Source: Victivallales bacterium | GTDB lineage: Bacteria; Verrucomicrobiota; Lentisphaeria; Oligosphaerales; Oligosphaeraceae | Reading direction: 5' to 3' | NCBI GenBank assembly: GCA_017535315.1 | Contig: JAFXUD010000094.1 | Coordinates: 1 to 64,000 of the forward strand | DNA length: 64,000 nucleotides | Shown here: one piece after another, positions 1-38,033 of the stretch | How the letters are laid out: each line of letters opens with the position of its first letter | Numbering within the stretch: the stretch's first letter is position 1 | Notes under the pieces: model-generated | Database searches by the model: none | What the model was told of the DNA's origin: nothing | What the model saw: the letters and a program-made list of their open reading frames with translations, nothing else | Program-made: the position numbers and the translations under genes

Positions 1-116
1 CCGCCCCTGCAAAACCGCCGCCCCTGCAAAACCGCCGCCCCTGCAAAACCGCCGCCCCTGCAAAACCGCCGCCCCTGCAAAACCGCCGCCCCTGCAAAAC
101 CGCCGCCCCTGCAAAA
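1..116. repeat. 17-bp GC-rich tandem repeat, about 7 copies
   Basis: The 17-bp unit CCGCCGCCCCTGCAAAA is repeated head to tail without visible divergence. The first copy is cut by the window edge (14 bp seen), then six full copies follow. The array therefore extends to the left of this window by an unknown amount. It runs directly into the leader of the Y1 transposase-like gene: the last CTGCAAAACC continues as AGGGG, which is the probable Shine-Dalgarno. The core CTGCAAAACCAGG reappears with one mismatch inside that gene at about 477-489, between two hairpins. There are no spacers, so it is not CRISPR. Confidence 0.95.
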
Positions 117-130
117 CCAGGGGATTTTTG

Positions 131-1096
131 ATGGGAAGACTACCAGGTTTTGATTATAAGAAACCATTCTTTTACATGGTTACGCTGAAAAGGTTGCGGA
201 ATCATCCTTGCAAGTTTCCTTTTTGCAGCATTTCAGATGATGGGCTTGTGGTGAACAATCCTATTACAGAGGCTTTCAAGGAGGTGCTTTCGATTTTTCA
301 TGAAACATGGTGGTGCATTGAACCAATCCATTACTATGTAATAATGCCTGACCATTTACACATGATTATCAAGATGCGCGAGGTGGAAGGGCGTGTTTCA
401 TTGCCAGTGGTGGTGCGGCAACTTATTAAGGCACTGGAGCGAGCTGTATGGGAAAATGCCGTCGCGGAGCGACGGCTGCAAGACCAGGTTTTGCAATCGG
501 CTGCTCCGCAGCCGATATTCGAAAAAGAGTGGCATGATTGGATTGTTAAGAAAGAGGGGCAGTTGGCGGCATTTCGAAAATACATAGAAGACAACCCGAA
601 GCGCTATGCTTTGCGGCGTGCAAATCGGCAGTTTTTCACACAGGCTAGGGTGATTGCCTTCCAAGGGCGGCAGTATTGTGCCTACGGTAATGAAGCATTG
701 CTGGAACTACCTGTGATTGTGGCAATCAAGGGGCATAGACAGCCAAGTCAGGGGGCTCCCATGGGGCAAAGGGCACTACTTGCGGAAGCATCAAGGCTTG
801 GACCTGGCGCAGCAGGGCTTTCGACCTTTTTGTCACCACTGGAGAAAAATGCTGGCAATGAGATTATCAAGGCTGGCGGTTCGCTGATTGTGCTTTCACT
901 GGCTGGTTTTGGCGAAAGGTGGCATCCTTCCGAAAAGCAGGAGCGTTTTTGTGCAGAGGGGAGGATGCTCTTCCTTTCGCCGTATGCTCCCGATGTTGCC
1001 AAATTTGACCACAAGACCATGTATCTACGAGCACATGAACTTGTCGATTGGGCTCTTGCCCATTCAAACGAGCAGTTGGAAGCATGGCCATGTTGA
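131..1096 (+). CDS. Y1 (HUH) REP-associated transposase-like protein with DprA-like C-terminal region
   Basis: Predicted single-strand DNA nicking/joining enzyme of the Y1_Tnp (RAYT/IS200-like) group. The N-terminal half shows the HUH motif as MPDHLHMII (residues ~73-81) and a candidate catalytic tyrosine in RKYIEDNPKR (Tyr ~151). Residues ~110-129, between these motifs, are encoded by two back-to-back DNA hairpins, so the linker looks like an in-frame REP insertion. Residues ~195-321 resemble the Rossmann-like core of DprA/Smf: a G-rich stretch, then IKAGGSLIVL, then HPSEKQERF and a G-x-x-x-SPY segment. This part of the call is inference. At 321 aa it is about twice the size of a plain RAYT. 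The ATG at 131 is chosen over an adjacent TTG at 128 because AGGGG lies about 6 nt upstream. Confidence 0.78.
   Translation: MGRLPGFDYKKPFFYMVTLKRLRNHPCKFPFCSISDDGLVVNNPITEAFKEVLSIFHETWWCIEPIHYYVIMPDHLHMIIKMREVEGRVSLPVVVRQLIKALERAVWENAVAERRLQDQVLQSAAPQPIFEKEWHDWIVKKEGQLAAFRKYIEDNPKRYALRRANRQFFTQARVIAFQGRQYCAYGNEALLELPVIVAIKGHRQPSQGAPMGQRALLAEASRLGPGAAGLSTFLSPLEKNAGNEIIKAGGSLIVLSLAGFGERWHPSEKQERFCAEGRMLFLSPYAPDVAKFDHKTMYLRAHELVDWALAHSNEQLEAWPC
458..516. repeat. REP-like hairpin doublet inside the transposase gene
   Basis: Two perfect hairpins lie 19 bp apart within the coding sequence. The first is GCCGTCGC-GGA-GCGACGGC at 458-476 (8-bp stem, 3-nt loop). The second is ATCGGCTGC-TCC-GCAGCCGAT at 496-516 (9-bp stem, 3-nt loop). 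The loops GGA and TCC are complementary, so the units face each other as in a BIME. The spacer contains CTGCAAGACCAGG, one mismatch from the edge of the upstream tandem repeat. The doublet stays in frame and encodes about 20 residues. Confidence 0.85.
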
Positions 1097-1147
1097 ACAT
1101 ATAATTCACGGAAGCCCTATTTTCATCTGAAAGGATTGTTATTCAAC

Positions 1148-1176
1148 TTGACGCAGTGAATGTTTTATTGTATAGT
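1148..1176 (+). promoter_or_regulatory. Sigma-70-like promoter of the STAS-phosphatase operon
   Basis: TTGACG at 1148-1153 and TATAGT at 1171-1176 are separated by 17 bp, a near-consensus housekeeping promoter. It points at the STAS gene at 1218. The predicted leader also holds a 9-codon reading frame (1199-1228) behind GGAGG that overlaps the STAS start in another frame. Confidence 0.75.
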
Positions 1177-1217
1177 ATCAGAAATCACTGGGAGGAAAAT
1201 GTCAAAGGACCACGCAA

Positions 1218-1514
1218 ATGAACATTAACAAAACCACAAACGGAAGCACCCTTACGCTCAGCCTTGAAGGAAGGCTCGACACAACGACATCACCTGAATT
1301 GGAGACGCTGCTTGATGCAAGCCTTGACGGCATCACGGAACTTGTTTTTGATTTTTCAGGACTTGACTATCTTTCCTCAGCAGGGCTTCGCGTACTGCTT
1401 TCAGCGCAGAAACGAATGAATAAGCAGGGAAGTATGAAACTACTCCATGTCAATGAAACCGTCAAAGAAGTTTTTGAAATAACGGGTTTTTCGGATTTTC
1501 TAACGATAGAATAA
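1218..1514 (+). CDS. STAS-domain anti-sigma factor antagonist (SpoIIAA/RsbV-like)
   Basis: A single STAS domain of 98 aa, the usual length for an anti-anti-sigma factor. The phosphorylation region reads LDYLSSAGLRVLL (residues ~49-61), so a phosphorylatable serine is kept. In this family the unphosphorylated protein binds an RsbW/SpoIIAB-type kinase and frees its target sigma factor or effector. AAGGA at 1206-1210 supports the ATG at 1218. One base separates its stop from the start of the next gene, which carries both a PP2C phosphatase and a kinase-like domain, so the two very probably form a switch. The sigma factor or effector is not in the window. Confidence 0.93.
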   Translation: MNINKTTNGSTLTLSLEGRLDTTTSPELETLLDASLDGITELVFDFSGLDYLSSAGLRVLLSAQKRMNKQGSMKLLHVNETVKEVFEITGFSDFLTIE

Positions 1515-1515
1515 G

Positions 1516-3636
1516 ATGAAATCTTTTCATTTCAACCGACGACGCACAATTGTTGCCATTGCTATTCTGGTTTATGTTTCCGCATTGGCTTTCACATGGC
1601 TTCTTTCTACAAAACGTGCTTGGCATCAGACAGAATCGATGCTGGACTATGCGATGTTGGATTTGAATGACACCTTGAATGGTTCCCTTGACACGATGCT
1701 GCTGCATATCGCAGTTTCCATCCTTGAAGACCTGGGGAGTGCAAAGCCCATTTCCAATGAAGATGCGTTGCGGATTCTGGCAGAACGGCGCATTGATGAG
1801 TTAAATGTCCTGGATCGTACTGGACGTAATCTTGGCTCCTCTGATTCACGTCTCATAGGAACATCCATGGCGGACACCCCGAAATCCGCTGAATTTCTGG
1901 TATTGACAAAGGGGGAGGTTCGTGCTTATTCGCAACCTTTTCGTACGGGGGGACACAATCCTGATGTTTGCAGAAAATATCTTGGATTGGCTTTCCCCGA
2001 CGGAGATGGCTTCATTCAGGTTGGAATTGACGAATCTCACGTCACCACGATGTTTCCATCCATCATGGGGTTTATTTTTGATGAATGGCTTTTGGGAGAG
2101 AAAGGCTTCTTTTTGTGTGCAAATATAGACGATGGGCGATTGATTTCAAATCCTGCACGTCATCGTGACGAAGCACATTTTTTGGAGGAAACAGGCTATG
2201 ACCCCAATGGATTCAATGTCTGTGAAGATGGAAAGAGAACATTCAATCAGCGTCTATTTGGCGAAACGTGCAATTGCCGTGCCATTATATTTGCAGGGCA
2301 TCGTATTATTGCGGCGCTTCCTCCCGCCGAGTATTTTCGTACAAGGACAGTCTATACAACAGGATTGGCAGTTTTGTTGGCAATAATACTGTCTTTGTTT
2401 GTTGTTTTGCTTTGCCGCATCAACGCGGATTCGATGCGTATTCAGGCCTTCTATGCATCGGAGGTGGAAAAGCATGCGGCGGAGCTTGAGCTGGGGCGTA
2501 CTATTCAGATGGCGGCCTTGCCGACGGCCTTCACCATGAATGAGTATTGTCGTCTTGCCGCTTTCATAGAGCCTGCGCAGGAGGTCGGGGGAGATTTTTA
2601 TGATTTCTTCTCATTGGATGAGACGCACCTGGCGTTTCTTGTCGCCGATGTTTCTGGAAAAGGAATAACGGGGGCACTTTATATGATGAATGCCAAGACA
2701 ATCATCAAGAATGTGCTTATGGCAACCACAACCTACGATCCAGCTGAGGCTCTTAGTCAAGTAAATGCCGAACTTTGTCGAAACAATCCAGCAGAGATGT
2801 TTGTCACTGCGTGGGTTGGAGTGCTAGATATTGATACAGGATATGTCTCTTTCGTCAATGCAGGACACAATCCGCCCATTCTTCGTCATTCCACTGGCGA
2901 AACCGAATGGCTCAAAGCGCGTTCAGGTTGCCCGTTGGGTTGCTTTGAAAACGCGACTTACAAGGTACGCGATATGCTGCTTAAGCCTGGCGACATGATT
3001 TTCCTTTACACAGATGGCGTCACAGAGGCGATGAATGTTTCTGGAGAACTCTTTGGCGATGAGCGTCTGATTGCAACCTTAGGTGATGGAAAACAACTGG
3101 CAGAGAATGCAGGTCCGTCAGAGGTATGTGCGGCAGTTCGTTCGAGTGTTGAGAGGTTTGTTGAAAAAGCCCCACAGGCGGATGATCTTACGCTTCTCAC
3201 AGTGCAGTACCTTTGCATCCCCGAACGATATGTACGGACCTTCCCTGCACAAGATGTTGCGTTGGTGGAAGCACCGTCATTTGTGGAGGAAAAACTACGT
3301 GCAGTCTTGTGTCCAAATAAAACAAGGGGGCAGATTCTGATTGCACTTGATGAGGTGCTTTCCAATGTGGTGCGTTGCTCGGGTGCATCGGGTATTACCG
3401 TGTCGTTGACTTTTTCTCATGCACGGCAAAGCCTGACGATGGCAATATCCGATGACGGCAAACCGTTCAATCCTCTTCATGTGCCGCCGCCAGACACCAC
3501 ACTTCCGCCTGAGAAACGTCCCATTGGCGGTCTAGGTATTCTGCTTTTGCAGAAGACAATGGATAAACTGGCCTATCGTTATGTGCATGGATGCAATATT
3601 CTCACGCTGTGCAAGACTATCGTGGCTAATTCATGA
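1516..3636 (+). CDS. Membrane sensor with SpoIIE/RsbU PP2C phosphatase and C-terminal RsbW-like HATPase
   Basis: A 706-aa fusion. A transmembrane helix (~11-31) and a second (~279-300) bracket a ~250-residue extracytoplasmic region, probably Cache-like. A PP2C/SpoIIE phosphatase follows at ~325-570, with metal-binding aspartates in GGDFYD (360), ADVSGKG (378), YTDGVTE (500) and DDLTL (~557). The end (~580-706) is an HATPase_c domain with an N-box LDEVLSNVV (Glu613, Asn617), a G1 box DDGKPFNP and a G2 box GGLGILLLQ. The phosphatase should dephosphorylate the STAS partner and the kinase phosphorylate it. Having both activities in one chain is less common than separate proteins. It ends 3 bp from the convergent thiH stop. 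Confidence 0.92.
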   Translation: MKSFHFNRRRTIVAIAILVYVSALAFTWLLSTKRAWHQTESMLDYAMLDLNDTLNGSLDTMLLHIAVSILEDLGSAKPISNEDALRILAERRIDELNVLDRTGRNLGSSDSRLIGTSMADTPKSAEFLVLTKGEVRAYSQPFRTGGHNPDVCRKYLGLAFPDGDGFIQVGIDESHVTTMFPSIMGFIFDEWLLGEKGFFLCANIDDGRLISNPARHRDEAHFLEETGYDPNGFNVCEDGKRTFNQRLFGETCNCRAIIFAGHRIIAALPPAEYFRTRTVYTTGLAVLLAIILSLFVVLLCRINADSMRIQAFYASEVEKHAAELELGRTIQMAALPTAFTMNEYCRLAAFIEPAQEVGGDFYDFFSLDETHLAFLVADVSGKGITGALYMMNAKTIIKNVLMATTTYDPAEALSQVNAELCRNNPAEMFVTAWVGVLDIDTGYVSFVNAGHNPPILRHSTGETEWLKARSGCPLGCFENATYKVRDMLLKPGDMIFLYTDGVTEAMNVSGELFGDERLIATLGDGKQLAENAGPSEVCAAVRSSVERFVEKAPQADDLTLLTVQYLCIPERYVRTFPAQDVALVEAPSFVEEKLRAVLCPNKTRGQILIALDEVLSNVVRCSGASGITVSLTFSHARQSLTMAISDDGKPFNPLHVPPPDTTLPPEKRPIGGLGILLLQKTMDKLAYRYVHGCNILTLCKTIVANS

Positions 3637-3639
3637 CAA

Positions 3640-4890
3640 CTACAGATAGAGATAGTCGTTGAGAACAGGCTGTAGGCCTTCTGATTCCATGTCGTGGTAC
3701 ATGGATTTCAGGCTGCGGCTGTCGGCGATTTCGAACTGTTCATCGCCCTCGTTTTCATTTTCCTTGCCAGTGTATTTGCTTTCGTGGTCGCCGATGCCAG
3801 TGGAAACTCCAGCGGAAATTTTTGTCGCGGCGATTTTTGCGATGCCGTTTCGGAAGGAGGCACTTTCGCGGGAGGAGACGGTAATGCCCGCAAAGGGCAG
3901 GAAGATGCGGTAGGCGCAGAGTATCTGGCAAAGCTCGCGTTCATGTACATCCTGCGGATTGATGGCCTCGTTGTTGACAATGGGGCGTAGGCGAGGACAG
4001 GAGAGTGAGATTTCCGCATGGGGGTATTTGCGTTGCAGGAAGTAGGCGTGGAGCCCCGTGGCGAGGGCATCCTTGCGGAAATCAGCCAGTCCCAGCAAGG
4101 CAGAAAAGGCGACTCCGCGCATTCCGCCCATCAGAGCGCGTTCCTGTGCATCGAAGCGATAGGGCCAGACACGTTTGTGGCCTGCAAGGTGTAGCTGCTC
4201 GTAGCGGACGGCATCATACGTCTCCTGGAAAACGGTAACATAATCGACACCACGTTCGTGCAGATACTTGTATTCGTCCGTGTTAAGTGGATAGACCTCG
4301 ACGCCGACCATTCGGAAGTATTTGCGTGCCAGGGCACAGGCATCGCCAATGTATTCAACGCTGCTTTTGCTGCGGCTTTCGCCTGTCAAGATGAGGATTT
4401 CCTCCATGCCTGAAGCAGAGATGATTTTCATCTCATGCTCAATCTGCTCCATGTCCAGCCTCATTCTGCGGATGTGGTTGTAGCAGTTGAAACCGCAATA
4501 GACGCAGTAGTTTTCGCAGTAGTTTGCGATGTAGAGCGGTGTGAAGAGATAGACGGTGTTGCCGAAGTGGCGGACCGTTTCACGGCGTGCGCGGGTGGCC
4601 ATCTGCTCCAGGAAGGGGGCGGCGGCGGGGGAGAGCAACGCCTGGAAGTCCTCGATGGTGCAGTTTTCATGTTCAAGGGCCCGAAGGACATCCTTTGCTG
4701 TGAACTGGGAGGCGTCGTAGGAGGCAACGCGCCCCATCACCTGCTCGCGCGTGTCGGATTTAATGACCTCCATGCCAGGTAGATAGGTCATAATATCCGT
4801 TCTGGATGCAGGATTGTTCTCCAGTTCGTGCTTTCTTTTCAGGGCAGCGGGGGAGAGAAACTCGGAATCGACGAAGAATTGGTTGGGCAT
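3640..4890 (-). CDS. thiH: 2-iminoacetate synthase ThiH
   Basis: Radical SAM tyrosine lyase that makes 2-iminoacetate (dehydroglycine) for the thiazole ring of thiamine, with 4-cresol as by-product. It is 416 aa. The [4Fe-4S]/SAM motif CENYCVYC (Cys125, Cys129, Cys132; CxxxCxxC) is clear, as is the BATS-type C-terminal region with SCPRLRP and TVSSRESASFRNG. It is the last gene of the thi operon, 18 bp after thiG. No clear terminator is visible in the 3 bp before the convergent phosphatase gene. Confidence 0.97.
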   Translation of the reverse strand: MPNQFFVDSEFLSPAALKRKHELENNPASRTDIMTYLPGMEVIKSDTREQVMGRVASYDASQFTAKDVLRALEHENCTIEDFQALLSPAAAPFLEQMATRARRETVRHFGNTVYLFTPLYIANYCENYCVYCGFNCYNHIRRMRLDMEQIEHEMKIISASGMEEILILTGESRSKSSVEYIGDACALARKYFRMVGVEVYPLNTDEYKYLHERGVDYVTVFQETYDAVRYEQLHLAGHKRVWPYRFDAQERALMGGMRGVAFSALLGLADFRKDALATGLHAYFLQRKYPHAEISLSCPRLRPIVNNEAINPQDVHERELCQILCAYRIFLPFAGITVSSRESASFRNGIAKIAATKISAGVSTGIGDHESKYTGKENENEGDEQFEIADSRSLKSMYHDMESEGLQPVLNDYLYL

Positions 4891-36549: not shown

Positions 36550-36897
<348 letters not shown>

Positions 36898-36899
36898 TT

Positions 36900-38033
36900 A
36901 TGGACAATCGTTTTACACTCATTTCGCCTGTGCCAGGCATCAATTCTGGCAGAATATACTATTTTATCCCCGATTGCGTGAAACAGGATAGACCATCGCC
37001 GCTCTTTGTCTTTATGCATGGAGGGGCACAGGCAACGCCCGATGATGCACCATACGAAATGTACCTGCATGAAAAGAAGGGGGTGCTGCAGCCTCATATT
37101 TCACATGCCCCGTTTATTGTTGCGGCTCCTTCTGCGCCTCCTGCCATAGACGGCAAGCGCTGGAACCGTGTTGGAACTGCGAAATATATTGAGGCTGTCA
37201 TTGAAGATGCTTGCTCACGTTTTTGCATTGATCGCGACCGCATCATTTTCGGGGGGCATTCCATGGGCGGGTATGGTGCCTATCATCTTGGGCAGATACT
37301 GGCGGATCGTGCAGCTGGAGTCTTTCTTAGCAGCGGTGCCTGGGTGGAATCGGATTTCCGTTCTCTTTATGGAACTCCTGCCTACATTCTACATGGAAAA
37401 TACGACTGTGCTGCAAACTATCATGAGCAGCACCCCGAACCACGGCACCACGACTGGTGCGGTGTCTCGCACGCGAGGGCGGCGCATGAGTTGATGCTTT
37501 GCTATGGTGTTGAGCATGTTTTTGACGAACATGAGGGAGGACACAGCCTGAAATGGGAACCTGCCCAGATGGCGTTCATGCGCTTTCTTGATTGGGCGGT
37601 CAAGCAGCGGCGCAATCCCTATCCGAAGAAATGTGCCCTCGTGACGCCTTGTGGATCGGGTGACCCTGACCTGGAGAATCGAAGCTCGTCAAGGTATTTG
37701 GAAATCCTCAAACAAGAACCAGGTCTTGTTTCATACGATCGCATTCAGTTGCATGGTCCGAATGTGGCATGGACGGTTCAGCAGTTCCTGCAGCAGGGCT
37801 ATTCCCTTGAGAAGAGTTGGCGGCCAGGTGCGCGTATCATCGCCGAGAATCTGGGGGGAAACCGTTTTGTTGTCCATGCGGAGAATCTCTCCAGCTTCGC
37901 CATAAAACTTGCGCCTGCGATGGGGGACCTTTCACGCCCATTCATTGTTGATGCTGGGGAACTTGGTGTGAAAGCGCTCAAAACAGAGCCTGTTACAGGG
38001 GATTCGGACTACTGCGCACGCATTGTTTTCTGA
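36900..38033 (+). CDS. Alpha/beta hydrolase, putative esterase
   Basis: 377 aa, no signal peptide. The nucleophile elbow is GGHSMGGYGAYH (Ser ~122). The oxyanion region is FVFMHGGAQ, an acid candidate is in ILHGKYDC, and the histidine is in DEHEGGHSLKW. It resembles the Esterase_PHB/feruloyl esterase-like group often linked to glycan use. A C-terminal ~120 residues forms an extra beta-rich domain not assigned. AAGG precedes the ATG. A weak promoter TTAGAA/TATAGT lies at 36842-36870. Confidence 0.85.
   Translation: MDNRFTLISPVPGINSGRIYYFIPDCVKQDRPSPLFVFMHGGAQATPDDAPYEMYLHEKKGVLQPHISHAPFIVAAPSAPPAIDGKRWNRVGTAKYIEAVIEDACSRFCIDRDRIIFGGHSMGGYGAYHLGQILADRAAGVFLSSGAWVESDFRSLYGTPAYILHGKYDCAANYHEQHPEPRHHDWCGVSHARAAHELMLCYGVEHVFDEHEGGHSLKWEPAQMAFMRFLDWAVKQRRNPYPKKCALVTPCGSGDPDLENRSSSRYLEILKQEPGLVSYDRIQLHGPNVAWTVQQFLQQGYSLEKSWRPGARIIAENLGGNRFVVHAENLSSFAIKLAPAMGDLSRPFIVDAGELGVKALKTEPVTGDSDYCARIVF

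Follow-up and report, generated by a model that had tools for sequence, protein, structure and literature searches.

The locus

The window, that is, the whole 64,000-nucleotide stretch of Victivallales bacterium DNA that was analysed, begins with base 1 of its contig, C41 in the host genome, within a tandem array of 17-bp units, behind which lies a gene that joins a REP-associated transposase (RAYT) to a C-terminal DprA-like domain (Table 1). The transposase half is as an earlier sequence-only reading had described it, with the HUH (H75-L-H77) and catalytic tyrosine (Y151) motifs of its family in place. The NCBIfam model REP_Tyr_transpos (NF047646) matched residues 66-161 with an E-value of 3.1e-9 at 36.8 bits, below its 80-bit cut-off, and in a Pfam scan of the 321-aa protein the match to Y1_Tnp was marginal. 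The tryptophan of the W motif is kept as W134, and the residue that follows is H135 instead of Q.

Table 1. Features at the start of the window, with positions counted from its first base.
Feature	Position	Strand	Evidence
17-bp tandem array CCGCCCCTGCAAAACCG	1..118		Unit = 3' stem arm + foot of upstream REP
AGGGG, ribosome-binding-like site, 7 nt 5' of ATG	119..123	+	Sequence
RAYT-DprA-like fusion gene, 321 aa	131..1096	+	Open frame; whole-length homologues elsewhere; AlphaFold2 pLDDT 84.3, pTM 0.78
Y1/HUH transposase domain, ~residues 1-162	131..616	+	NCBIfam REP_Tyr_transpos 3.1e-9; Foldseek 4er8 1.8e-5, 2xm3 2e-5
HUH motif H75-L76-H77	353..361	+	Both His invariant in 22-sequence alignment A7
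In-gene REP 1: GGTCTTGCA foot + hairpin GCCGTCGC-TCC-GCGACGGC	456..485	-	Covariance model R1 39.8 bits, E 4.3e-8
In-gene REP 2: GGTTTTGCA foot + hairpin ATCGGCTGC-TCC-GCAGCCGAT	487..516	+	Model R1 37.8 bits, E 1.4e-7
Catalytic tyrosine Y151 in YIEDNP	581..583	+	Y and NP invariant in alignment A7
DprA-like Rossmann domain, ~residues 180-312	668..1066	+	Foldseek 4ljr/5mll/3uqz DprA, 8zva ShosA; profile + hhalign

Conservation and distribution of the fusion

Homologues of the whole fusion, 43-57% identical, are present in the genomes of several relatives, and whole-length homologues were also found in named Kiritimatiellae/Victivallales metagenome assemblies, whose source is ruminant guts. With a profile of the C-terminal domain, the fusion domain was detected in 80 of the 388 genomes of the phylum, in at most 12 copies per genome. 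The HUH motif is present in all complete members inspected and Y..NP in nearly all, as judged by simple pattern matching. No match to the fusion was found in plasmids, phages or viral contigs, where one of the queries was a single peptide pattern. In three homologue pairs both halves gave pN of 0.12-0.35 against pS of about 0.8, values that are quoted separately since pS is saturated, and this pattern indicates purifying selection on both halves in the sampled pairs. Together, the whole-length homologues and the purifying selection make the gene neither a product of chance nor a frameshift artefact, the latter being one of the outcomes that the sequence-only reading had named as fatal to its own proposal.

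Broken copies of the gene are known. In one relative (G027) a frameshift splits the fusion gene (L037, 4923-5892), and elsewhere (L038, 2011-2398) a remnant is left in which, through an internal deletion, the first ~18 codons run directly into the last 35 in a different reading frame. Such copies would fit a reading of the window gene as a decaying element with a C-terminal part that is meaningless read-through, but the occurrence of the domain across a fifth or so of the genomes searched, its invariant residues and the low pN relative to pS indicate that this reading is already refuted by conservation, and we give it practically no credence.

On a transposase-core tree that included the unfused RAYTs of the same genomes, the distribution of fusions required 2 label changes, against a mean of 18.3 when labels were shuffled, and a single fusion clade could not be rejected (p-AU 0.457). 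Just one row labelled 'unfused' falls among the fusions; this row (L202), whose sister is a fusion, is located close to a contig end. The RAYT-DprA-like architecture is real and widespread. A literature search returned no paper that joins RAYT and DprA in the sense of a fusion, and the architecture is apparently an undescribed RAYT variant, the function of which we infer below.

The cognate REP family

The two REP elements within the gene form an inverted, REPIN-like doublet separated by one base, and lie in frame between the HUH motif and the catalytic tyrosine. The family to which they belong has the foot GGTTTTGCA, a TCC loop and a variable stem of 7-9 bp. In an alignment of 16 elements the loop is invariant and the foot nearly so, and the stem covaries: 81% of stem cells are paired, compared with 57.5% in shuffles and far above slid versions, and 29 cells show double changes, compared with 13.6 in shuffles (0/500 shuffles). 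Covariance model R1, which was built partly from genomes that were later scored, found 12 copies in the host (G000), 77 in G012, 18 in G025, 2 in G020 and 20 in G011, the main genome left out of its building, together with single weak matches in two further genomes; the remaining members of the set of 60 relatives gave no match. G000, G011, G012, G014, G020 and G027 carry close fusion genes (E<1e-60), and the carriers of REPs overlap with these (Fisher p 1.5e-4); two of the close carriers, G014 and G027, the latter with the frameshifted gene, have no REPs by model R1 at E 0.01.

The elements are also tied to the gene by position. In G011 the gene (37002-37871) is flanked on both sides, by REPs at 36730 and 36854 and at 37946 and 38038, and REPs lie in or beside the fusion gene in L032, L034, L037 and G012, the REP of L032 (4480-4509) again being in frame between the HUH motif and the tyrosine. 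The window gene is a REPtron, with cognate REPs upstream of it and within it that are multiplied in most genomes carrying them. More distant fusions seem to have their own elements. In the closed genome G008, which has two distant fusion genes, copies of a different hairpin, GCCGCTTGCGGC, are clustered at each of these and also at other places; it is this clustering that matters, as the contrast in number (24 copies compared with 15 in the reversed control) is weak. An Rfam scan of window positions 1-4000 matched no family. The 18-mers GGTTTTGCAAGAGCCTCC of G044 and G029, which resembled REPs in a pattern search, were rejected as members, as they form no hairpin and give no model R1 score; their flanks are divergent (e.g. 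L158 167, L165 121), and they are perhaps a regulatory site.

Arrays of stem arm and foot

Outside the start of the window, the 17-bp unit occurs at just one other place, the end of contig C73 (7072-7190 of 7197), where the array follows a complete REP with hairpin and foot (C73:7058-7087). On account of this restricted occurrence, C73 and the window's contig very probably are neighbours split by the array. C73 carries a large Ala/Pro/Thr repeat protein and genes that by eye resemble those of the FliP/SctR, SctT and SctU components of a type III export apparatus (L084, 3263-6169), and this contig probably precedes the window.

REP arrays were considered as a general cause of contig ends in the host, and this was rejected. 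At four contig ends (L214, L215, L216, L219) a REP is found directly 3' of an apparent 5S rRNA gene and terminator, as identified by eye, so that the clustering of REPs there is explained by rRNA repeats, and only the break between C73 and C41 is due to the array. Behind the host's rRNA operons this same REP is found with one to four units of 15 bp, which likewise consist of the 3' stem arm and foot, and in several relatives there are short in-frame tandem repeats within the fusion gene. The arrays may be caused by slippage or by enzyme action. A 9-bp tandem repeat, CTCCTGTCT, is present in about 9 copies at 36726-36808 of the window.

Fold and kinship of the C-terminal domain

In an AlphaFold2 model of the window protein, made with ten family sequences, residue 194 is followed by a Rossmann domain of beta-alpha-beta type, the last strand of which ends at residue 317. 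In a Foldseek search of the PDB the first match of this model was H. pylori DprA (HpDprA, 4ljr; E 3.8e-6, prob 1.00), followed by ShosA (8zva; 1.2e-5), E. coli TnpAREP (4er8; 1.8e-5), ISDra2 (2xm3; 2e-5) and pneumococcal DprA (4e-5). A second member, 27% identical and modelled separately with 22 sequences (pLDDT 89.3), matched TnpAREP (4er8; 1.5e-6), ShosA (5.7e-5) and DprA (3e-4). LOG structures were absent from the best 50 Foldseek matches of both models, the LOG/SLOG nucleosidase motif PGGxGTxxE is not conserved across the fusion family, and a viral structure library gave nothing at E<=0.001.

At the level of sequence, this domain drew no match when the single sequence was run against Pfam, NCBIfam and, with phmmer, the PDB, and a PF02481 match is absent from the window protein and the members of alignment A1. 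When the domain profile was run on the full set of PDB chains, it matched only HpDprA (E 0.005, or 0.02 with 43 sequences), with 'GN..LL..P....R' opposite 'GD..LL..P...GTR'. By hhalign the alignment to true DprA was weak but in register (prob 10-15%, P 0.002-0.003), and that to three stand-alone DprA-like proteins (L081-L083), which were found by a PF02481 search and themselves match PF02481 (best 1.4e-6), reached P 1.6e-9 and prob 96%. As the direct alignment is weak, homology to DprA rests on the fold and on this bridge family. The three stand-alone proteins carry an SGF.SP.E motif and are possible defence or toxin-antitoxin genes, and one of them (L081; G032:C418) matches PADLOC PsyrA at 1.1e-9. 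The C-terminal domain is a truncated DprA relative; as judged by these alignments, DprA proper is more distant from it than the PsyrA/ShosA-type branch is. The DprA/Smf motifs that the sequence-only reading had picked out are present in the window protein and conserved across 43 relatives, and the check that it had suggested came out in its favour, in a confident DprA-like fold that is repeated by the divergent member, and in the sharing of the architecture with other genomes of the phylum.

R203, present in 43/43 sequences, aligns with the ssDNA-binding arginine of the DprA G-S/T-R motif, which is R52 in HpDprA and R115 in SpDprA (PMC4066776); E238 (43/43), R278 (42/43) and K239 (38/43) are also conserved. 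The DprA motif SGxAxGID is absent, with S(P/T)xxSPxE(K) in its place, and the domain aligns solely to columns 5-130 of the 224-column DprA alignment. In SpDprA, RecA is contacted by E235, M238, D243 and E265, and the dimer residues are 249-275 (PMC4066776). Mapped by offset, this whole stretch (235-275) would fall beyond column 130.

Function of the fusion protein

On balance we favour a reading of the protein as a RAYT with a truncated C-terminal DprA-like domain, in which the HUH half works on its own REPs, with ssDNA of these elements as the most likely ligand of the DprA-like half. As inferred from its family and from its association with the REPs, the Y1/HUH half would cut and rejoin the hairpins of its cognate REPs as single strands; these substrates lie 5' of the gene, within it and at scattered sites in the genome. 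The fold and the conserved R203 suggest that the DprA-like half would bind ssDNA next to the active site, either that of the REP substrate or that of the intermediate left by cleavage; in this way it may help to hold, protect or re-anneal the single strand for rejoining.

DprA loads RecA on incoming ssDNA, and the sequence-only reading had hinted at such a link for the fusion. In this case the strand cut by the transposase would be passed to the host recombinase, and REPs would move by RecA-dependent recombination. Conservation of the ssDNA-binding arginine would suit this role, and the tandem clusters and arrays of REPs could come from recombination. However, the fusion domain ends soon after its aligned part in the AlphaFold2 model, and the host already has an intact, full DprA of its own (G000:C36). 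Because the fusion lacks the part of DprA that bears the dimer and RecA interfaces, RecA loading by it is unlikely, has little to recommend it among the readings discussed here, and the earlier hint is left unsupported.

A different role is suggested by the kinship of the domain, as its nearest profile match is to the stand-alone proteins that include the PsyrA-like one, and ShosA ranks high among the structural matches of both models. The domain could be an antitoxin-like regulator of the ShosA/PsyrA kind, which senses a nucleotide or the state of DNA and restrains the HUH nuclease until it is needed. We regard this as rather unlikely, since the domain occurs fused to a RAYT, the fusions themselves have no PADLOC match, and the conserved basic residues fit DNA binding equally well.

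It is also conceivable, albeit with clearly lower probability than the reading we favour, that the domain mainly extends REP recognition, by reading the foot GGTTTTGCA in place of the GTAG-reading C-terminal tail of TnpAREP. The foot of the fusion family is not GTAG, the C-terminal tail of E. coli TnpAREP contacts the last GTAG bases (PMC8266576), and the fusion keeps the tryptophan of the W motif and has H135 where Q would follow. Against this, other feet are read by RAYTs elsewhere, those of subclass 2.6 and class 3, with no Rossmann domain involved (PMC6006769), and, since the REPs of distant fusions seem to differ, one shared domain would have to serve different feet. This reading also overlaps with ssDNA binding beside the active site, our preferred explanation.

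A bolder form of the preferred reading, which we hold only tentatively, is that of a self-contained REP-copying enzyme, in which the HUH half cuts the REP strand and the DprA-like half protects it, anneals it or hands it on. If this were so, the spread of REPs in this phylum would involve a recombination-mediator step that has no described counterpart among RAYTs, and the recurrent short tandem arrays of 3' stem arm and foot would be the footprint of the enzyme.

How REPs spread, and why RAYTs persist as single chromosomal genes, are unanswered questions in the field. In the fusions, a recombination-mediator-like domain has become fixed on the nuclease of a large RAYT clade that has a recognisable cognate REP family. 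This offers the GGTTTTGCA hairpin as a concrete substrate and R203 as a concrete residue for asking what becomes of the strand after cleavage. The case also places a DprA-like fold outside transformation and outside toxin-antitoxin systems.

Comparison with known systems

The fusion shares with RAYT/TnpAREP proteins (E. coli TnpAREP, PDB 4er8) the HUH and Y...NP motifs and the Y1 fold, as well as a low copy number and cognate REPs that flank the gene and occur in multiple copies across the genome. It differs from them in its C-terminal DprA-like Rossmann domain and in scoring below the cut-off of the NCBIfam RAYT model. In the portion of the classification of Quentin et al. (2018; PMC6006769) used here, the C-terminal domains of known RAYTs are HTH/DnaA_C-like or subclass-specific, and a DprA or Rossmann domain is not mentioned there. 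That classification describes, for RAYT subclass 2.4, a REP inserted in frame between HUH and tyrosine, as in the window gene. The canonical RAYT foot is GT[AG]G, in contrast to the GGTTTTGCA of the fusion family, but subclass 2.6 and class 3 also lack this foot in that account, so that it is not required of every member (PMC6006769). The IS200/IS605 TnpA proteins (IS608, ISDra2) have the HUH/Y1 catalytic fold in common with the fusion, but have Y...Q where the fusion, a chromosomal gene with REPs, has Y...NP.

With DprA/Smf (PF02481; HpDprA 4ljr, SpDprA 3uqz) the C-terminal domain shares the Rossmann core, with the first four core strands in register, and the 'G(N/D)..LL..P...(G/S).R' segment that bears the ssDNA-binding arginine. 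Unlike DprA, it lacks SGxAxGID, the C-terminal dimer/RecA stretch and a SAM or DML1 domain, sits on a transposase and has no PF02481 match of its own. With ShosA (8zva) and the PsyrA-type stand-alone proteins (L081-L083) it has in common the S-G/P-F-x-S-P-x-E motif and the 'GRLL.LSP' strand; those proteins are stand-alone or belong to toxin-antitoxin or defence systems, whereas the fusion domain is carried on a RAYT.
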